The notes below the pieces were generated by a model. It did no database searches, was not told the origin of the DNA, and saw nothing but the letters and a program-made list of their open reading frames with translations. This document shows, one piece after another, positions 2,239 to 25,544 of a stretch of DNA of 55,663 nucleotides. The translations under genes and the position numbers were made by a program. Numbering within the stretch: the stretch's first letter is position 1; every line of letters begins with the position of its first letter. Source of the stretch: Beijerinckiaceae bacterium (lineage in GTDB: Bacteria > Pseudomonadota > Alphaproteobacteria > Rhizobiales > Beijerinckiaceae); the NCBI GenBank assembly GCA_947498445.1, contig CANMLK010000002.1:1-55663 (forward strand), in the 5' to 3' direction.

Positions 2239-4122
2239 TTAGCTTGGGGTCGCAGAGTTCCTGCGGAAGAGGCCGGCGAGATTTCCCCAAAGCTCGATTT
2301 TAACGCCTTGCTTGCGCATGATGTAATATTGCTGCGCCAGCGACAGAACGTTGTTCCATGTCCAGTAGATCACGAGACCGGCCGGGAATGCGCCGAGCAT
2401 GAACGTGAAGATAATCGGCATCCAGGCGAACAGCGCCTTCTGGATAGGATCGGTCGGCTCCGGGTTCATCTTCATCTGAACGAACATCGAGATGCCCATC
2501 AGAATCGGCCAGACGCCAACCCACAAGAAGGGGCCGATGACAGGAATAAGGGTCGGGTTGAAAGGCAACAGGCCGAACAGGTTGAACAGGTTCGTGGGAT
2601 CGGGGCCGGACAAATCCTGAATCCAGCCGAAGAACGGCGCATGACGCATTTCGATGGTGATGAAGATGACTTTGTAGAGCGCGAAGAACACCGGGATCTG
2701 CACGACAATGGGCAAGCAGCCCGCGATCGGATTGATCTTCTCGCGTTTGTAGAGCTCCATCAGCTCCTTCTGGAGCGTTTGCTTGTCGTCGGTATATCGC
2801 TCCTGCAGCGCTTTCATCTCGGGCTGCACAGCCTTCATCTTCGCCATCGACACGTAGCTGCGGCTGGCGAGCGGGAAGAACACGAGCTTGATGAGAACCG
2901 TCACGACGAGGATCGCGACGCCGAAATTGCCGACGAACTGATAGATGTAATGGATGAGCCAGAACAGCGGCTTGGTGATGAAGTAGAACCAGCCCCAATC
3001 GATCATCAGGTCGAAGTTCTTGATCTGCAGGGCGGCCTGATATCCATCGATGATCAGGGTTTCCTTGGCACCCGAGAAGATGCGGTGCGTCGCCTCGAGA
3101 CTGGCGCCGGGGGCGACGGTGCGGCCTTCCTCAAGAAAATCTGATTGATAGTTGCGTGCATTGGCGGCGCCCATCGCAGCGAAGCGCGCTTCGAACGCGA
3201 CGTTCTGCTCGGGAATGACAGCCGTCGCCCAGTACTTGTCGGTGATGCCAACCCAGCCGCCCGTTCCCTTGAACAAACGCGTCTGCTTCGGCTCCTTCTC
3301 GACGTTGTCGTAGGTGTATTCCTGCACACGCGATTCGCCGACGACCCCGACAAAGCCTTCATGCAGGACGACGTAGCCTTCGGTCTTCGGCTTGCCGACG
3401 CGCGAGGTGAGCGCATAAGGGAACAGGGTTACAGGCTGCTCAGTCTTGTTCTCCACCACGTTGCGGATGGTGAACATGTAGCTGGCATCCACCGACACGA
3501 TGCGGCGAAAAATCAGGCCCTGCCCGTTGTCCCATGTCAGGGTCACAGGCTTGTTCGCGGTCAGCGTCTGGCTGTCGGCGGTCCAGAGCGTATCAGGACG
3601 CGGCGCGACGACGTTCGTTCCCGGCTGGGCGACGTAGCCCGATTCCACAAAATAGGGGTGGGGTGAGCCGGCCGGGTTCAGCAAGCTGATTGTCGCGCTG
3701 CCAGGCTGGATCGTCTCGCGGAACTGGGTCAACCGCACATCGTCGATGCGGCCGCCGCGCAAGTTGATCGAGCCAGACAGGCTCGGCGTGTCAATGCGCA
3801 CGCGGGGTGCGCCTTCAAGCGCCTGCTCACGGGTGAGGCCAAAAACAGGAACCGGCGCTGGCGAAGGGGTGGTCGGCGCAAGTGTCGGGGCGGGCGCACC
3901 GGGAACCACGGCTTGCGGCGCAGCGACGCCAGGCGCAGCAGTCGAGGGCGCGGGCTGGGTGGCTTGCGGCGGCGTCGCCTGCTGAGGCAGCTGCGCCTGT
4001 TGCTGTGTCTGCTGCTGGCGTTGACGCTGGGCTTCGGGAACGCCGTAAAAGAAGTTCCAGCCAACAATGACCAGAAGGGAGAGGCCCATGGCTATAAATA
4101 GGTTCTTCTGGTCCTCGCGCAT
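2239..4122 (-). CDS. yidC: Membrane protein insertase YidC
   Basis: Inserts and folds inner-membrane proteins, alone or with SecYEG. The N-terminal membrane segment (about residues 6-26) is followed by a Gln/Pro/Ala-rich linker (to about residue 95), the large periplasmic P1 domain, and the conserved C-terminal 60KD_IMP core with five membrane segments starting near residue 365. Length is 627 residues from the ATG at 4122, usual for proteobacterial YidC; a GTG two codons upstream (4128) is an alternative. It lies 75 bases after rnpA. That gap is too short for yidD, which often sits between these two genes in other bacteria. Confidence 0.96.
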   Translation of the reverse strand: MREDQKNLFIAMGLSLLVIVGWNFFYGVPEAQRQRQQQTQQQAQLPQQATPPQATQPAPSTAAPGVAAPQAVVPGAPAPTLAPTTPSPAPVPVFGLTREQALEGAPRVRIDTPSLSGSINLRGGRIDDVRLTQFRETIQPGSATISLLNPAGSPHPYFVESGYVAQPGTNVVAPRPDTLWTADSQTLTANKPVTLTWDNGQGLIFRRIVSVDASYMFTIRNVVENKTEQPVTLFPYALTSRVGKPKTEGYVVLHEGFVGVVGESRVQEYTYDNVEKEPKQTRLFKGTGGWVGITDKYWATAVIPEQNVAFEARFAAMGAANARNYQSDFLEEGRTVAPGASLEATHRIFSGAKETLIIDGYQAALQIKNFDLMIDWGWFYFITKPLFWLIHYIYQFVGNFGVAILVVTVLIKLVFFPLASRSYVSMAKMKAVQPEMKALQERYTDDKQTLQKELMELYKREKINPIAGCLPIVVQIPVFFALYKVIFITIEMRHAPFFGWIQDLSGPDPTNLFNLFGLLPFNPTLIPVIGPFLWVGVWPILMGISMFVQMKMNPEPTDPIQKALFAWMPIIFTFMLGAFPAGLVIYWTWNNVLSLAQQYYIMRKQGVKIELWGNLAGLFRRNSATPS

Positions 4123-4197
4123 TCTCACAAACCCTGTGTCGCAAACTCTATTGGGGCTGCTGAAGCGCCGCCCCGCCGATGGCCAAGAAGTCGTCTG

Positions 4198-4680
4198 TTA
4201 TCTAGATTTGGACGGAGTTTTCCGCCCTTTCGATCGCGCCGGCTTGTCGCCGATGAGGCGCATTGCCCGGCCTAGTTCGCTCACGAGCCGGTCAAACCCG
4301 GTCGCAAGCGCCTCGCGGCGAGCAACAATCACATAATCGAAGCCGGGCTTGGCCTCCAGCGGCGCCGCGCGACGAAGCGCCTCGCGCAGGCGACGGCGCA
4401 TCCGGTTGCGCTCAACCGATCCGCCGGCCTTTTTGGTGACCGTGAAGCCGAAACGGGCCGGGCCCGCACCGTCTTCTTCGCCATGCTCGCGGGCCGTTTC
4501 TTCGCCATCCTGGCGGGCGATGGCCTGAAGGCTGAAGGAGGCTGCATGAAACCGCGCTCCCTTGGCGGCGTTGAGAAATTGCGCACGGTTGCGCAAACCC
4601 TCAGGCCAAGGCGCAGACAAGCAACCGGTTAGGCGGGGTTGAGGCGCGGTCGCTGTGACTGATGCGCCGGAGCCGGTCAT
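4198..4680 (-). CDS. rnpA: Ribonuclease P protein component
   Basis: Protein subunit of RNase P, which removes 5' leaders from tRNA precursors. The RNR signature is clear (ERNRMRRRLREALR, about residues 90-103), preceded by FGFTVTKKAG and followed by DYVIVARREA. Length is 160 residues from the ATG at 4680, longer than the usual ~120: there is a ~20-residue N-terminal extension and an acidic insert (about residues 58-73, rich in Glu and Gly) before the first conserved strand. The upstream frame stays open to 5085 but overlaps rpmH, so the start at 4680, 32 bases after rpmH, is preferred. Confidence 0.92.
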   Translation of the reverse strand: MTGSGASVTATAPQPRLTGCLSAPWPEGLRNRAQFLNAAKGARFHAASFSLQAIARQDGEETAREHGEEDGAGPARFGFTVTKKAGGSVERNRMRRRLREALRRAAPLEAKPGFDYVIVARREALATGFDRLVSELGRAMRLIGDKPARSKGRKTPSKSR

Positions 4681-4712
4681 GGCTGGCTCGCGATAAGAGA
4701 GGCTGGGGGCGT

Positions 4713-4847
4713 TCAGGCGGACAGGCGCTTGCGGCCGCGAGCGCGGCGAGCAGCGATGACCCGACGGCCGCCTACAGTCGCCATACGGGACCGAAAACCA
4801 TGACGGCGCTTGCGCACGATCTTGGAAGGTTGGTACGTCCTTTTCAC
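4713..4847 (-). CDS. rpmH: 50S ribosomal protein L34
   Basis: A 44-residue, very basic protein that matches L34 over its whole length: it begins [19 protein letters not shown] and ends in [10 protein letters not shown]. The start is a GTG at 4847 with GGAGA about eight bases upstream. It is the first gene of the rpmH-rnpA-yidC-engB-argB run and has its own promoter at 4998-5027. The frame continues upstream to 5060 but only as unconserved sequence through the promoter region. Confidence 0.97.
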
Positions 4848-4997
4848 GGGTCTTCTCCGGTTGCTGGAGACCGGCCCGGGCGCGGCGCGTCCGCAGAGCT
4901 GGTCTATTAACGTCAAAAACGCCGCCCCGCCTCCGCTGCTGCGGACATCCCGAGCGAGCGAAAAAGCGACGTCGGCGTCGCCGAAATCGAGTGCGGC

Positions 4998-5027
4998 CAT
5001 ATACGGGAAAGCGGGCGAACAAGTCAA
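4998..5027 (-). promoter_or_regulatory. Probable sigma-70 promoter of rpmH
   Basis: On the minus strand TTGACT (5027-5022) and TATATG (5003-4998) are separated by 18 bases, close to the housekeeping consensus. It lies about 150 bases upstream of the rpmH GTG and directly downstream of the 25-bp tandem repeats. This is a sequence match only. Confidence 0.6.
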
Positions 5028-5039
5028 TTGACGGCAGGA

Positions 5040-5139
5040 CCTTTTCCGCGCACCGCGCAATTAGCCTTTTCCGCGCACCGCGCAATTAGCCTTTTCCGCG
5101 CACCGCGCAAATCGCCTTTTGCGGGCGTCGCGCAAATGT
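5040..5139. repeat. Four-copy 25-bp tandem repeat upstream of rpmH
   Basis: Copies start at 5040, 5065, 5090 and 5115. The first two are identical, the third differs only at its 3' end, and the fourth is diverged (about seven changes). Each unit starts CCTTTTCCGCGCACCGCGCA and ends in an A/T-rich tail. The array ends 13 bases before the -35 box of the rpmH promoter, so it lies where an upstream promoter element or regulator would bind. Confidence 0.9.
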
Positions 5140-5198
5140 GAGGCGCTTCGACGCGCCTGTCCGTGCACGCTTGCGGCCGACAGTCTATGTTGCCGACG

Positions 5199-5999
5199 AT
5201 GACACATCAAACCGACGTTGCCGCCCCCAAGAAGCGAAGTCCATGGCTGCGCCTTGCGCCGCTGATCGTGCTGATTCTTGCGCTCGGCGCGGCACTGGCG
5301 TCGGGCGCGGCGAGCGTTCTCAGTCTTGAAAATCTTCTGGCAAGCCGCGAATCTATGTCGAGCCTCATCGAACGCAACCTGCCGCTGGCGATTGGCCTTT
5401 TCGTGCTGGCCTATGCGGCGATTGTCGCCGCCTCCATTCCCGGCGCGTCGCTTTTCACCTTGTCGGGCGGGCTGCTGTTTGGCGGATGGCTAGGCGGCGC
5501 GGCTGCCGTCGTTGGCGCCACAGCGGGGGCCACGTTGCTGTTTCTGGCCGCACGGACCTCTCTGGGCTCTTTTCTTGCCGAACGCGCGGGCCCAAAGATC
5601 GAGCGGCTTCGCGCCGGCTTCCAGAAGGATGCGGTCTCCTACCTGCTGTTTCTGCGGCTGGTGAGCGTTTTTCCGTTCTGGCTGGTCAATCTGGCTCTGG
5701 CCGTCACGGGCGTGAAGCTGCGGACCTTCGTGTGGACGACCTTTGTCGGCATCATGCCCGCCACGCTGGCTTTTGCACTGGCTGGAGCGGGCCTTGGGTC
5801 GATCGCCGACCAGAAGCAGAAGGCCTATGAGGCCTGCATCGCGGCCAACGGCGCCACCGCCTGCACGCTTGGCATTTCGCCGCAGGACCTCGTGACGCGC
5901 GAAACATTGATCGCCATAACAGCATTGGGAATCATGGCTCTCATCCCCATCATCCTGCGACGCTTCCGATCTGCGAAAGAAGGGCGGTCCAATGGCTGA
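5199..5999 (+). CDS. TVP38/TMEM64 (VTT/DedA-like) membrane protein
   Basis: Integral inner-membrane protein of the SNARE-associated/VTT family, a relative of DedA proteins and probable lipid scramblases. A first membrane segment follows the basic RSPWLR near residue 20; the VTT core includes IPGASLFTLSGGLLFG, the Gly/Ala-rich segment after it, FLRLVSVFPFWLVNLA and a late GIMPATLAFALAGAG. A small Cys-containing soluble loop and a last membrane segment with a basic tail follow. Start is uncertain: ATG at 5199 or 5187, or GTG at 5163; none has a good ribosome-binding site. The stop overlaps the next gene by eight bases, so the two are coupled. VTT proteins and this kind of flavin oxidoreductase often occur side by side; the substrate is unknown. 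Confidence 0.88.
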   Translation: MTHQTDVAAPKKRSPWLRLAPLIVLILALGAALASGAASVLSLENLLASRESMSSLIERNLPLAIGLFVLAYAAIVAASIPGASLFTLSGGLLFGGWLGGAAAVVGATAGATLLFLAARTSLGSFLAERAGPKIERLRAGFQKDAVSYLLFLRLVSVFPFWLVNLALAVTGVKLRTFVWTTFVGIMPATLAFALAGAGLGSIADQKQKAYEACIAANGATACTLGISPQDLVTRETLIAITALGIMALIPIILRRFRSAKEGRSNG

Positions 6000-7416
6000 C
6001 GCGCTGCGCCCGGATCTTTGCGTCATTGGCGCGGGCTCTGGCGGATTATCCGTCGCGGCCGCAGCCGCTGCGATGGGGGTGAGTGTCGTCCTCATCGAAA
6101 AAGGCGAGATGGGCGGCGATTGCCTGAACTATGGCTGCGTGCCCTCAAAGGCGCTGATTGCGGCCGCGCGCACGGCGCAAACCATGCGGGAGGCCGGACG
6201 CTTTGGCGTGCACGCCACAGAGCCGCGCGTCTCCATGGAGGACGTGCGCAAGCATGTGCGCGGCGTCATCGACGGCATCGCGCCCAACGACAGTGAAGAG
6301 CGCTTCAAGGCGATGAACGTGCGCGTCATCCGCGCAGCGGCGAAATTTACCGGCCCCGACAAGCTGGAAGCGGGCGGTTTTGAAATTCGCGCGCGCCGGT
6401 TTGTCATCGCAACCGGATCGGCCCCCGCCGTTCCGCCGATCCCCGGCATTGAGCTGACGCGCTATCTGACCAACGAGACCCTGTTCGATCTTGAAGAACT
6501 GCCGCATCGGCTCGTCATCATTGGCGCCGGGCCCATCGGGCTCGAAATGGCCCAGGCGTTTCGCAGGCTGGGCAGCGAAGTGACCGTGCTGGAAGCAGGC
6601 CGCGCTCTTGCGCGCGAAGACGAGGAACTTGCGCGGCCCGTCATTGACGCGTTGGTGCGCGAAGGCGTCCTCATCCGCGAGGGTGTGAAGATTTTGCGCT
6701 GCGAGGCGACAGCGCGCGGGGCCCGAATCGTCCTGCCTGCGGGCTCGGTGGAAGAATTCATCGACGCCACGCATGTTCTTGTCGCCACGGGCCGCAAGGC
6801 CAACGTGCACAACCTTGGACTGGAGGCCGCCAACGTCCAGTTCGACAACAAGGGTGTGAAGGTCAACGCGGGCCTGCGCACATCGAACAAGCGCATCTAC
6901 GCCATCGGCGACGTTGCGGGCGGCGCGCAGTTTACCCACGCGGCCAATTATCACGCGGGCCTCGTCTTGCGTTCGGCGCTGTTTCGTCTGCCGGTGAAAG
7001 TGAAGCCGGAGCTTATTCCGCGCGTCACCTACACCGATCCGGAAATTGCCGTCGCAGGCCTGAGCGAGGCGCAGGCGCGCGAAAAGCACTCCAAGCTGCA
7101 AATTTTGCGCTGGCCATTTGCCGAAAACGACCGCGCGCGGGCCGAGCGGCGCATTGAAGGACATATCAAGGTGGTCGCGTCTGCTGACGGGCGGATCCTG
7201 GGCGCGGGAATTGTCGGCGCGCATGCGGGCGAATTGATCGCACCCTGGCAATTGGCGCTGACGAAGGGCCTCAAGCTCGCCGATATGGCGAATATCGTAT
7301 TGCCCTACCCGACGCTGTCAGAGGTTTCGCGGCGGGCGGCTTTGCTGCATTATCAACCGAGCTTGCGCCGGCCCGCGCTGAAGCGGCTGCTGGCGTTTAT
7401 GCGCTGGTTCGGTTGA
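5992..7416 (+). CDS. FAD-dependent class-I pyridine nucleotide-disulfide oxidoreductase (mercuric reductase-like)
   Basis: A 474-residue flavoprotein of the lipoamide dehydrogenase/mercuric reductase family. An N-terminal FAD-binding GAGSGG (about residues 13-18) is followed by the redox-active pair GGDCLNYGCVPSK (Cys44 and Cys49), an NAD(P)-binding IIGAGPIGLEMA near residue 180, the FAD motif AIGDVAGG near 305 and the C-terminal dimerisation domain. The catalytic His of the usual HPT-x-x-E motif is Tyr here (PYPTLSE); I recall Tyr at this place in other VTT-linked members. There is no N-terminal metal-binding domain and no C-terminal vicinal Cys pair, so mercuric reductase activity is not supported. 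It overlaps the VTT gene, suggesting electron transfer linked to that membrane protein. The substrate is unknown. Confidence 0.88.
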   Translation: MADALRPDLCVIGAGSGGLSVAAAAAAMGVSVVLIEKGEMGGDCLNYGCVPSKALIAAARTAQTMREAGRFGVHATEPRVSMEDVRKHVRGVIDGIAPNDSEERFKAMNVRVIRAAAKFTGPDKLEAGGFEIRARRFVIATGSAPAVPPIPGIELTRYLTNETLFDLEELPHRLVIIGAGPIGLEMAQAFRRLGSEVTVLEAGRALAREDEELARPVIDALVREGVLIREGVKILRCEATARGARIVLPAGSVEEFIDATHVLVATGRKANVHNLGLEAANVQFDNKGVKVNAGLRTSNKRIYAIGDVAGGAQFTHAANYHAGLVLRSALFRLPVKVKPELIPRVTYTDPEIAVAGLSEAQAREKHSKLQILRWPFAENDRARAERRIEGHIKVVASADGRILGAGIVGAHAGELIAPWQLALTKGLKLADMANIVLPYPTLSEVSRRAALLHYQPSLRRPALKRLLAFMRWFG

Positions 7417-19987: not shown

Positions 19988-21064
19988 TCAGCGTCTTGAG
20001 AAACCCGCGCGCGAAGGCCTGGCCGAGTTGATGCGCCCGGGATTTGCGAAGCGAGCCGCTTCAGTCGGCCTGCGCCCCTCAATAGAAGGAGGTCTTGTGG
20101 ACGGGGGCTTTCCGCCAGGCGGACGCCAGCCGGGGCCGGGCCGCGGGCGTCGGCCTCCGTGAAGAAACGGCAACACAACGCCTGCTCCCACAATAAAGGG
20201 AACAGGACGCCCGACATAAACGGGTTCGTCGTAAAACTCTTCAACTTGCACAACCCGTGCGGGCCGCGGCGTACGAACAGGCGCACGTGCAACCTTGCGT
20301 GGCGGCGTAGCCCTTGGTTGTTGCGCAACTCTGCGGGTTGGCGCGCCCTGGCGTGGCGGAGGCGCGGCCTGCGCGCGGCGCGTGGGCGATGGCAATTGCG
20401 CGAACTGGGTCACGCCGCACAGGTCCGCCGCGCGGCCCGCGCAGAGACTGCCGAAATCCCAGGGCTTGTCGGCGGGAGCCGTCGGCCCTTCAATATCATT
20501 GTTGGTGACGAGGAGGCTTTGTCCGGGCTCCGTCAACTCTCGGCAGCGCGCGCTGTTGCGCAGGCACACATTGACCGCCCCTTCCTGCAACACAACAAGC
20601 GTGCGCCCAGCCTCCACACGCACGTCATACGTGGTGCCGCGCACGCCGATATGCGCGTGGGGCGTCGTTAACTTGTAGGCATCGGACGGCGACTGGCCGG
20701 ACACGAAGCGAAACGCGCCCTTGGTGGCGGTGACTGCGAGGTTCTTGCCCGCGCCTTGGGGATCGAACACGAAAGTATCCAGTTTGACGCGACTGTCGGG
20801 ACCAAGCGTCATGTTGGTGTCGTCGAGGAAGACAAACTTCGCCATGCTTTCGGTCGCAGTCTGCACACCCTGATTGGCGAACACGCGGTCGCCCAGCGCT
20901 ATGCGCGCGCGCTTGCCCGCGGTGTCGCCGCGCACGTCATTGACCACGACGGACGCGCCGCCAATGGCGGTCTGGGCAAACGCGGTCTGAGCAAACGCGG
21001 TCTGGGCAAGCATGAAAGCCGGCGCAGCGCAGATGATCAGATGCAGCGGAAACAGGCGGGCCAT
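19988..21064 (-). CDS. FecR-domain exported protein with Pro/Arg-rich tail
   Basis: A 358-residue protein. A signal peptide (MARLFPLHLIICAAPAFMLA) is followed by a threefold AQTAF-type repeat at its probable cleavage site. A FecR domain (about residues 40-190) is recognisable from GDRVFANQGVQTATESMAKFVFLD, GAFRFVSGQSP, and TPHAHIGVRGTTYDVRVEAG with LVVLQEGAVNVC. The remaining ~150 residues are rich in Pro, Arg, Ala and Gly. Unlike FecR anti-sigma factors it has no cytoplasmic N-terminal domain, and no FecI-type sigma factor is adjacent, so regulation of a sigma factor is unlikely. The ATG at 21064 has GGAGG about eight bases upstream; the longer open frame to 21337 is unconserved. Confidence 0.82.
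   Translation of the reverse strand: MARLFPLHLIICAAPAFMLAQTAFAQTAFAQTAIGGASVVVNDVRGDTAGKRARIALGDRVFANQGVQTATESMAKFVFLDDTNMTLGPDSRVKLDTFVFDPQGAGKNLAVTATKGAFRFVSGQSPSDAYKLTTPHAHIGVRGTTYDVRVEAGRTLVVLQEGAVNVCLRNSARCRELTEPGQSLLVTNNDIEGPTAPADKPWDFGSLCAGRAADLCGVTQFAQLPSPTRRAQAAPPPRQGAPTRRVAQQPRATPPRKVARAPVRTPRPARVVQVEEFYDEPVYVGRPVPFIVGAGVVLPFLHGGRRPRPGPGWRPPGGKPPSTRPPSIEGRRPTEAARFANPGRINSARPSRAGFSRR
20967..21011. repeat. 15-bp tandem repeat in the FecR-protein signal peptide
   Basis: Three near-identical 15-bp units (20967, 20982, 20997; one to two differences) encode AQTAF, AQTAF and AQT in a row at the signal-peptide cleavage region. Each copy supplies another small-residue cleavage site, so copy number should not abolish export. 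Confidence 0.85.
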
Positions 21065-22104: not shown

Positions 22105-22239
22105 CCCCTCACCCGTCAGGCTCCGCCTGCCACCTTCTCCCGCAAGGGGAGAAGGAAGGGCGCCAATCACCAAGTTCGCCTCTTCCTTCTCCCCTTGCGG
22201 GAGAAGGTGGCCTCCGCGAAGCGGAGGTCGGATGAGGGG
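22105..22239. repeat. Inverted pair of ~55-bp palindromic repeats
   Basis: Two copies in opposite orientation: 22105-22157 and 22183-22239. Each runs CCCTCA, a CCGC-rich stem, then CCACCTTCTCCC-GCAA-GGGGAGAAGG. The pair could fold into a long stem. The family is common in Hyphomicrobiales genomes as far as I recall. It lies between the L,D-transpeptidase stop and the stop of the restriction-modification gene, where it could act as a bidirectional terminator. Confidence 0.8.
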
Positions 22240-22241
22240 GG

Positions 22242-25200
22242 CTACTCCCGCGCCGCGCCCTTCATGGCTTCGACGATCTCCATTGTCTCCACGCTCACGC
22301 GGGTGACGCGCGTGAGAAGGTCCACGACCTTCTCCTTATAGTCGGCGAAGCGATAGGTGTTGAACTTCTCGCGGATCGTCGGGTCTTTCGGCGTCTTTTC
22401 CTTGTGCTGGTCGAGAATCCAGTCCAGCGCCGTGCGGTTGCCCAGCCGATAGGTCCATGCGCTTGCAGGCACGGCGGCGAGTTGCGTTTCGCTGTCGAGC
22501 GTGATGATCCCGGTCTCGTGGTCCGAGCGCAGGATTGTCTTTGGTGGCAGGGACGCCTTGCGCGATTTCTCGTCGGGCGCGTCGGTGCGCGTCAGCGGCC
22601 ACGGCTCGACGCTCTCGTAGCTGATGTGCAGGGCCATGAGTTTCTCGCCCCAGTCCGCCCAGCGCCAGAAATCAGGATAGAACGGAATGCGCGGAAACTC
22701 GCGCTTGAGGTTCTGCGCGTATTTCTCGCGATACAGCGGATCGTGCAGCACGGCGTAGACGTAATGGAAGATCGCGTCCTTGCTGATCTCGCGCTTGGGC
22801 GTTGCGCCCTTCTCCCGTTGCGCGGGAGAAGGTGGCCGGAGGCCGGATGAGGGCGTCTGCGCATCCGCAACACTGGCCGCATCAAGCCCCGCCGCCCTCA
22901 TCCGACCCCGCTTCGCGGGGCCACCTTCTCCCGTCGCGACGGGAGAAGGAAGCGCGCCGTACTTTCCGTATTGCGTGATGAACTTGTTCAGCGCCCAGTC
23001 GGTGATGTTGTCTACGTACCTTCCGTTCTCATTCCGCAATCGAGGGGCGAACTGCGTCTTCTCAAGCATGTCGAATGATGGCACACAATCAACAGCGATA
23101 GATTGGAACGCTTTTGCTGATGATAGACCACTGAATCCGATTGCGAGGTTTGACCAGTCACCACAAATTGGAAATATGAGGTCTTGTTGGTATGTTCTGT
23201 GCGTGATAATCGGTACATAATATGTATGTAACTTAACGAAAGGTCTATCTGCCCCACTACGAAGATATTCTTGCGCTAAGGGAATTTTACGGCCAGCATC
23301 AAGATGCGCCTCTAATTCCTCAGTCCACTTTATCTCACGGCTTACAAAATTTCGAATTGCATCCTTGACTGCTTGGCTTCGAAGCGAGCCTTTTGGCTTC
23401 TCAAAAGTCTTCTTGCGTTCACTCGATTGCTTCCAACGCTCTTGCTCAGCGTTAAATATCCCGCAAAAACTCTTCACAGCAGCAAAGACGTGATCCCGCG
23501 AAAATCCTGTTGTCCATTCATCACGCGCACTTACGATTCCGTTCGAAAAAAGCTTGAAGATCGCTCGCTCTTGCGACTTTTGTTTTGCGTCCTTAGTTTG
23601 CTTTGATACGACTGGCAAAAGCGTTTCAAAGTCATTGTCCGTGAGATTAATCCAGTTTGATTTTTCATCTGGCCGAACAGATGCCAGTTCAGTGCTTGCA
23701 AGCTGCGCCTGACCAAGCCACTCCAGCTTTTCCTCCGCCGTCTCCATCTCGGGCCGCCGCACATAGTGAATACGGCACTCGTGCTTCTCATCCTTCTTGC
23801 GCTTGTGCTTGATGAGAAATGAAATGGCCACGCCCGTCTGAATGCCGAACACATTGTTCTTCGTGCCTGACAATTTCGGGTTGGCGCGCACGTCTCCGCC
23901 CAGATCGACCACGTAAACATCCGAGTATTCAGCCGCCACGGCCTTGCGGAATCCGTCCATCGTGCGGCTGTCGATGAAGCTGCGGTTCGTGACGAACGCG
24001 AGAATGCCGTCGTCATGCAGGCGGTCCGACGCCCAGCGGAAGAAGCGCGTGTACATGTCATACGCCTTCGTCTTCTGCGCCGTGCTCTGCTTGATGTAGG
24101 TAGCCTTGATCCGCTCATCGATGCGCGGATAGGTCCGGTTCTTGTTGTTGTCGTTCTCGTTCTGCTGGTTGGCGTTGTAAGGCGGATTGCCGATCACGAC
24201 CGAAATCTTGCGCCGGTTCTGCCGCTTGATGCGCTCGACGTTTTCTTCCGACAGCGCGCCGAACAAATCGTGCTGATGGCCCGAGCGGATGCCAAGCCCC
24301 GCCACATTGTCCAGCGTGTCCACAAAGCACAGGTTCGGATAATCCGCGTATTGCCCCATGATGGCGGCATACGTCGCCTCGATGTTCAGGTTCGCCACAT
24401 AATAAGGAAGGATCGCCACTTCGTTGGCATGCAATTCTTCCTTGTACTTGTGGGCAAGTTTTGTCTTTTGCCCGCGGAAATGCTCCAGCAATTCGCAGAT
24501 GAACGTGCCCGTGCCGGTGGCGGGGTCAAGAATTTCAACATCGCGGTCAATCAGCGCCTTGCCGAAATGTTTCTGGCACAGCCAGTCGGCGCTCTCGATC
24601 ATGAAGCGCACGATCTCCTGCGGCGTGTAGACGACGCCAAGACGATCCGCCGCCTTCTTGTTGTAGACCTTGTAGAAGCCTTCGTAGATGACCTTGAGAA
24701 AGGTCTGCTTCTCGCTGTGGCTCTTGATCTGGTGCGCGGTGGCGCGGATGGCGTTGTAATAGGGCTCCAGCCCTTTCAGAGTGTTCTTTTTCAGCGCGCC
24801 GGTGAAGAACAATTCCTCAAGGGTGTAAAGTTCCTTCGCCACGTTGTTCTGGCGGTGGAAGTCGTCGTTGTCGAAAACCTTGGCGAAAATCTCCTCCGTC
24901 AAAATGTGCTGGATGAGCATTTCGCGCACATCGTCGGCGGTGACGGCGGGGTTGATCGTCTCCTTGGCATGCTTGAGGAATTTGGTCGACGCCTTGCGGA
25001 AGGCGGCGTTGTCGGCGCTCGCCTTGTCGATCATTTCGCGCAGCGCCTTGAGGACGGCGGGCAAGTCTGTCTGGAACTGGACGACGGCGCGGCGGAAGTC
25101 GCGGATTTCCTGCCGCTCGTAGCCGAAGAAAAGATCGAGCAAATGCTCCAGCTTTTCCACGTCCTGCACGGGGGAGCGCGTGACCTCGTTGCCATTCTGG

Positions 25201-25544
25201 AAGAGGACGGCCTTCGTGCTGTCCTCGAAGATGATGTTGTCACGCGGATAGCCGCGCCGGAACTTGGCGGCGATCTCCTTGTCGAGATCGTCCTCCTCGT
25301 CCTTGGCCTCCCAATACCCGAACGGCAGGCGGAGGTCATAGACGAGCGCGCCGTCGACCGTGCGGGGCTTACCGTCCTGCTTGGGCAGGTCGTATTCGGG
25401 GATGAAGATGAGGTCGCGGGTGCGGGCGTAGTCCTTGAGCAGGTCTTTGAACGCCTCGCGGACGACGGATTCCTTGGCCGTTCCGGAGGCGCGCTTCAGG
25501 TCGTCCAGATGGTTGAGATACTTGTCGATCGCCTATCGGCTCAT
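22242..25544 (-). pseudogene. Type ISP/IIG-like restriction-modification enzyme with amber codon 4
   Basis: From the ATG at 25544 the frame encodes 1100 codons with one interruption, TAG at 25535-25533 (codon 4). The natural sequence was probably MSRQAIDKY, with CAG changed to TAG. Domains: PD-(D/E)xK nuclease (about 1-125; Asp64 and Glu79-x-Lys81), a helical coupler (125-300), N6-adenine methyltransferase with motif I DPATGTGTF near 338 and NPPY near 452, then a target-recognition region (about 600-880) and C-terminal domain. No helicase motifs are seen, so architecture is closer to type IIG than classical ISP. No ATG, GTG or TTG occurs in frame before the GTG at 25169, which falls just after the nuclease domain. 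A methylase-only product from there is possible. The recognition region is AT-rich and carries an inserted repeat. Confidence 0.85.
22807..22952. repeat. Inverted palindromic repeat pair inside the restriction-modification gene
   Basis: Same family as 22105-22239, in tail-to-tail order: one copy at about 22807-22856 and the opposite-strand copy at 22895-22952. The element keeps the reading frame, adding roughly 50 Pro/Gly/Arg-rich residues (for example GLRPPSPAQREKG) between the recognition region and the C-terminal domain. Confidence 0.85.

Follow-up and report, generated by a model that had tools for sequence, protein, structure and literature searches.

Probable recent loss of a DrdV-like Type IIG restriction-modification enzyme through a nonsense codon, and a linker of this enzyme family that carries palindromic repeats in several relatives

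The DNA analysed here, which we call the window, is a stretch of 55,663 nucleotides from a Beijerinckiaceae bacterium and carries on its minus strand a long gene that is interrupted almost directly after its start (Table 1). Re-reading of this strand confirmed what an earlier note on the sequence had reported, namely that the codons ATG AGC CGA TAG are followed by GCG ATC GAC AAG and by a frame of 1096 codons without stop (25532-22245), which is closed by a TAG of its own at 22244-22242. Residues are numbered from the first codon past the interrupting TAG throughout. Pfam matches the frame with ISP_coupler, N6_Mtase, Eco57I and Type_ISP_C and with no nuclease family, NCBIfam yields nothing on the gene other than matches far under the cut-off, and PADLOC ranks a Type IIG model first for the frame. 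Among solved structures DrdV is the best match both by sequence (PDB 7lo5; phmmer, E 2e-298) and by fold (Foldseek, E 9e-92), with a whole-chain TM-score of only 0.54, so that the placement of the domains in the model is uncertain. The model itself, generated with AlphaFold for the post-stop frame, has a mean pLDDT of 83.7 and a pTM of 0.56; its longest stretch with pLDDT below 50 comprises residues 862-910, and shorter ones lie at 297-301, 412-425 and 453-465. The three N-terminal residues D60, E75 and K77, which we take to form a PD-(D/E)xK pattern, are invariant across all 57 aligned sequences, as are the methylase motif NPPY (449-452) and, within DPATGTGTF, residues D336, P337, G340, T341, G342 and T343.

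Table 1. Features of the interrupted gene and its surroundings in the window
Feature	Positions	Strand	Basis or remark
Start codon, two sense codons and amber stop	25533..25544	-	sequence, N-termini of relatives
Open frame of 1096 codons with its own TAG, DrdV-like single-chain restriction-modification enzyme	22242..25532	-	
Nuclease region, residues 1-121, with D60, E75 and K77 (presumed PD-(D/E)xK pattern)	25170..25532	-	alignment, model
First in-frame canonical start past the stop, GTG, residue 122	25167..25169	-	codon scan, relatives
ISP_coupler domain (PF22240), residues 153-273	24714..25076	-	Pfam
N6-adenine methylase region (PF02384/PF07669), residues 280-544, with DPATGTGTF and NPPY	23901..24695	-	
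Recognition and C-terminal region (Type_ISP_C, PF18135), residues 657-1072	22317..23564	-	Pfam
In-frame palindromic repeat element, residues 857-914, between two conserved helices	22791..22964	-	
Two further copies of the element directly downstream of the gene	22129-22164, 22182-22242	.	one abuts the stop codon of the gene

Pfam, phmmer and Foldseek thus agree with the note that nuclease, coupler, methylase and recognition parts share one frame, which is interrupted at codon 4, and the stop precedes the whole nuclease. By these sequence and fold comparisons we identify the gene as that of a DrdV-like single-chain Type IIG restriction-modification enzyme, broken at codon 4. A strict Type ISP enzyme was considered and ruled out, because no helicase family is matched in the frame by Pfam; the alignment of the Type ISP enzyme LlaGI to the frame moreover starts only at residue 133. 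Relatives of the gene also occur in a viral collection (three) and in a plasmid collection (seven records at E 1e-100, two of which span at least 80% of the query).

Judged from the alignment of N-termini the ATG is the real start of the family and no chance ATG, because a start codon is aligned at this place in 82 of 87 distinct N-termini of relatives, a count made outside the three copies of the window itself and outside L105, L107 and L069, whose matches begin at residues 17, 31 and 87, respectively (relatives are given by locus, L, or genome, G). All 87 are free of stops over the first ten codons; in L021, a decayed remnant, stops begin at codon 55. The fourth codon specifies Leu in 32 and Gln in 25 of these N-termini, and in the near relatives either Leu (CTC, TTG, CTG) or Gln (CAG). 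The earlier note had explained the amber by a C-to-T change of CAG and had proposed comparing codon 4 in close relatives. Such a change is possible, but since the near relatives have CTC, TTG, CTG or CAG at this codon, an ancestral CAG is not established.

What would such a stop mean for the cell? Ribosomes that start at the ATG would be expected to stop after three residues, and with no canonical start in frame over the next 121 codons there would be no bifunctional enzyme or only traces of it. Because nuclease and methylase are parts of one chain, both activities would probably be lost together, which would provide a safe route to shed restriction. Loss of the full-length product, which the earlier note had listed among its options, is in our judgement the likeliest consequence of the stop, and we regard a recent loss of the full-length Type IIG enzyme through the nonsense codon as a reasonably probable account of this locus.

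The note had also envisaged a methylase lacking its nuclease, which would be made from the GTG at 25169. The codon scan agrees that this is the first in-frame ATG, GTG or TTG after the TAG (codon 126 counted from the ATG), and in the model residue 121 closes the last strand of the nuclease, which places the GTG just past this domain. A product starting here would keep methylation while restriction is lost, and it is favoured by the position of the break between nuclease and coupler, by a Shine-Dalgarno-like pairing near the strength of that at the real start (-6.6 kcal/mol versus -6.8 at the ATG) and by the title of PDB entry 5ffj, which names a nuclease-deletion mutant of LlaGI on DNA and by analogy suggests that such a truncation can fold and bind. 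Then again, initiation deep in the message would be required, and residue 122 is Met in 46 of 69 relatives, where it lies inside a full-length protein for which a second start is unneeded. Val occurs at this residue in 15 relatives and is encoded by GTC in seven, by GTT in three, by GTG in three and by GTA in two. With GTG accounting for only three of the 15 Val codons, a selected internal start at residue 122 is not supported, and the nuclease-less methylase, while conceivable, finds no support in these counts and appears quite improbable to us.

A complete bifunctional enzyme could also arise at low level, either by readthrough of the amber or from a near-cognate start just past it, for which ATC at codon 6 and CTG at codons 13 and 16 are at hand. 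Only three residues precede the stop, and because the first helix of the model starts at residue 2, directly past the stop, either event would be predicted to yield a nearly full-length enzyme; the same suppressor could in principle read the ochre codon of a second, related gene described below. However, the tRNA matches in the genome number 33, and none of the 32 that are typed has a stop anticodon; this list is incomplete, tryptophan, isoleucine and cysteine being among the tRNAs missing, and the one untyped match is a partial one at a contig end. Among the typed tRNAs of this list there is thus no sign of a reassigned or suppressed amber. Moreover, the gene itself terminates in TAG, and the arrangement of a short leader, a stop and an open frame is found in none of the 87 N-termini of relatives. 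Readthrough, which the earlier note had left as a further option, is thus very unlikely in our view, as is the near-cognate start, and we return to the loss of the full-length product.

This reading depends on the stop being present in the organism. The stop is known from one draft assembly of 332 contigs, and a single-base assembly error, for which one base suffices, or the consensus of a strain mixture would leave the gene intact in the organism and would also fit the conservation of the remaining frame. Then again, stops are rare in this assembly, as only one of 84 ABC-transporter domain matches, which served as control, contains an internal stop (at about 140 codons per control match versus about 1100-1280 for the two broken genes), and we rejected a generally stop-rich assembly on this count. 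It also speaks against an error that a second related gene of the same genome bears a lone stop. PF02384 has two matches only in the assembly, one being the gene in the window and the other a gene on contig 68 (L142, about bases 2579-6430), which is distant and Type ISP-like and contains one TAA in its methylase region; at the position of this TAA relatives have Glu (L010), Gln (L011 and L012) or Arg (L197). Finally, like lesions occur in relatives from other assemblies. An assembly error is therefore unlikely; the amber is real in this assembly, and the full-length enzyme has probably been lost recently.

As far as the compared sequences tell, breakage of the DrdV-like gene is not rare, because seven of the 80 relatives that were kept by six peptide patterns from 221 found are broken, a selection in which broken copies may be under-sampled, and because further lesions were seen in an order-wide sample and in the same genus. 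Four of the seven have a lone in-frame stop in an otherwise open frame (L032, L034, L045, L072) and three have frame changes (L089, L099, L108), that of L089 with a stop in the overlap. Three others were flagged and not counted as broken, two for a second overlapping or distant match (L080, L106) and one for a stop at the natural end (L090), and L069, unmatched over residues 1-86, may be broken too. The order-wide sample has the gene matched in 14 of 297 genomes and split between frames in two of them (G287, G179). A member of the same genus (G048, locus L147) has residues 268 to 910 deleted, and the right edge of this deletion at 910 adjoins the insertion linker described below.

How long ago, then, was the enzyme lost? 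There are 222 alignment columns in which at least 95% of 69 full-length relatives agree, and the window gene departs from them at two, one of 113 in the methylase and one of 13 in the recognition part, with none of 24 in the nuclease, none of 28 in the coupler and none of 44 in the C-terminus. In comparison with L143, its nearest relative, dN/dS is about 0.09 for the nuclease, 0.07 for the coupler and 0.12 each for methylase and C-terminus by Nei-Gojobori counts, in which dS is near saturation (1.4-1.5) for nuclease and methylase and which the recognition part of this pair is too diverged to allow. The end branch of the window gene in a quick tree is short (0.055). In relative-rate comparisons over residues 1-640, changes specific to the window and to L143 number 19 and 57 with L144 as outgroup, 14 and 61 with L062, and 30 and 30 with L040; for the nuclease only, the corresponding figures are 10 versus 4 (chi-square 2.6), 2 versus 15, and 11 versus 5 (chi-square 2.3). 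The excess of window-specific changes in the nuclease with L144 and L040 counts against a recent loss, and the deficit with L062 points the other way. Taken together, conserved sites, dN/dS and relative rates give no support for a long-standing relaxation of the nuclease. Because the conserved sites, those of the nuclease included, are intact and purifying selection is apparent, these comparisons indicate that selection maintained the gene and with it the nuclease until recently and that the stop is recent.

The earlier note had called the gene otherwise intact. The frame is indeed open past the stop, but this description overlooked an in-frame palindromic insertion of 58 residues, whose frame is open and whose DNA folds with a z-score of -7.7 relative to shuffled sequence. 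The element yields at least 45 match rows at 32 distinct places in the genome, its own place included, most rows covering one arm only (about 40-75 bases) and 40 of 56 candidates having been scored. It is thus palindromic, present in many copies and open in the frame of its host gene, as are known intragenic repeats; no GTAG or CGTC tag was seen by eye at its stem ends, and Rfam reports no RNA family at the gathering threshold between positions 20000 and 30000 of the window. L143 has a shortened piece at this place that begins with the same residues, YGKYGALPSP, which suggests that the insertion probably predates the split of the window gene and L143 and was carried by a working gene. Next to the element lies the recognition segment (residues 641-856, positions 22965-23612), which is far more diverged between the window gene and L143 than are its flanks: identity amounts to 81% over residues 1-682, 40% over residues 727-869 and 89% over residues 910-1095. 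Such a drop (40% versus 81-89%) would be expected if specificity segments were exchanged.

The linker that holds the element joins the recognition domain to the conserved C-terminal part and carries inserts in other members of the family as well. Of 70 aligned rows, which represent 69 relatives and the window gene, 18 are extended by 12 or more residues in this linker, whereas at any other site such an insertion occurs in at most three rows. A strict set was limited to the 12 rows whose insert consists of repeat DNA that is found again in the same genome, contig or gene. Whole-genome match rows, which include the query itself and both strands, number 41 for L042, 129 for L048, 55 for L035 and 4 for L036; copies outside the gene lie within the fetched locus in L038, L043, L051, L057 and L148, the last two being near-copies of each other that were both kept in the counts. 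In L037 (bases 1896-2016) and L100 (bases 5419-5456) copies of the main-linker inserts lie inside the same gene, in a second loop corresponding to window residues 577-579, and an unlike insertion is found at this second loop in L093. The fold z-scores of the inserts are -9.9 (L038), -9.7 (L035), -7.5 (L148), -6.7 (L057), -6.5 (L048) and -4.0 (L051), lie between -2.3 and -3.0 for L036, L042, L043 and L100 and reach -1.9 for L037. The weaker scores alone prove no palindrome, because six of 80 control stretches (five per gene from 16 genes) fall under -2, the lowest at -2.8.

Other inserts were left out of the strict set. Those of L070, L071 and L075 are not palindromic and remain uncounted as repeats, the short insert of L104 is likewise left uncounted, and L143 and L055 have fold z-scores of -1.7 and -1.8 and no repeat-like copy of the insert in their flanks. 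Among further loci, L185 and L045, which are outside the tree and were judged by fold only, have long linkers with strong folds, and L184, L186-L189 and L199 have no such linker. The linkers of L032, L089 and L069 are short, with that of L072 slightly exceeding them, and a motif is missing from L034, L099, L108, L145-L147, L182, L183, L190 and L198. In a class-wide sample L207 is without insert and L208 repeats that of L071.

On a quick tree from which the recognition segment and the insert were left out, the strict set requires eight changes, seven of them forced by well-supported branches, a count that cannot separate gain from loss. The label is somewhat clustered, as few changes being needed in three of 500 shuffles, which counts against full independence; then again, the sister rows L038 and L048 bear unlike repeats, which counts for it. 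By their record titles, the bearers comprise among others Bosea, Ciceribacter, Hoeflea, a Rhodobacteraceae bin, Alicycliphilus, which we take to belong to the Burkholderiales, and a Synechococcales bin.

But why would repeats be found in this one linker? The simplest cause is tolerance, because in the model the insert is an unstructured loop that connects two helices and the second loop at 577-579 has also been struck. The presence of the L037 and L100 repeats in this second loop favours plain tolerance over a role in exchange. A further idea starts from the fact that the linker borders the variable recognition segment: the linker may be a landing site for genome-specific palindromic repeats, with repeated, independent entries in Alphaproteobacteria, in a Burkholderiales-type genome and in a cyanobacterium, and its role may go beyond that of a tolerant loop, in that shared repeats could aid the exchange of recognition segments. 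We consider this proposal doubtful as a whole, and exchange at the linker border as an additional cause is a conjecture.

The amber alone is an ordinary kind of event, and the insertion hot spot is the more interesting of the two observations. If the stop is real, the genome has lost both of its detected PF02384 genes via single nonsense codons, the locus is a clean and recent example of the shedding of one-chain restriction systems, and the host is predicted to be more open to foreign DNA. The hot spot, in turn, would mean that in unrelated bacteria translated repeats are naturally accepted by one and the same enzyme family, and it offers natural variants with which to distinguish mere tolerance of palindromic repeats in proteins from their use in the reshuffling of DNA recognition.

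Among known systems DrdV (PDB 7lo5 and 7lvv) is the closest, with the same order of domains, a similar length and, in the Foldseek alignment of 1116 columns with gaps counted, 46% identity; the phmmer alignment spans window residues 2-856 and 915-1090. Unlike DrdV, the window gene has the stop at codon 4 and 58 extra residues between DrdV residues 839 and 842, which flank the site in an enzyme that is itself without insert. The Type ISP enzymes LlaGI and LlaBIII (PDB 5ffj and 4xqk) align in their coupler, methylase and recognition domains, but the window frame has no helicase between nuclease and coupler and comprises 1096 residues versus 1406-1578 in the PDB chains. We presume that DrdV-like enzymes are members of Type IIL. 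In that type, characterised by lone-strand modification, methylation of one strand is described as sufficient for protection (PMC3936762). DrdV itself appears among the Type IIG enzymes in PMC6430315, with the motif CATGNAC.

Like the window gene, single-chain Type IIG genes are described as interrupted by premature stops in some strains, as for instance Helicobacter JHP1272 and in Cutibacterium (PMC3936762, PMC8989293). The Helicobacter switch is reported as a homopolymer frameshift, however, whereas the window gene has one nonsense codon, and by eye no repeat is evident at codon 4 in the window sequence. Among the open papers listed, none describes in its title or the opening of its abstract palindromic repeats in frame within restriction-modification enzymes or target recognition domains. 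In-frame palindromic elements are reported from protein genes of Rickettsia (PMC10969869), and REPs, which are sorted by a GTAG or CGTC tag at one end, from inside genes of several species (PMC3733652). In its section 15 the latter source names no restriction enzyme and reports about the same site of insertion only for recB of two Xanthomonas species (PMC3733652). The element described here resembles these Rickettsia elements and intragenic REPs, as far as the two sources portray them, in being a palindromic genome repeat in frame within a protein gene, but it differs in that here various genomes have their own repeats entering the same linker of one enzyme family.
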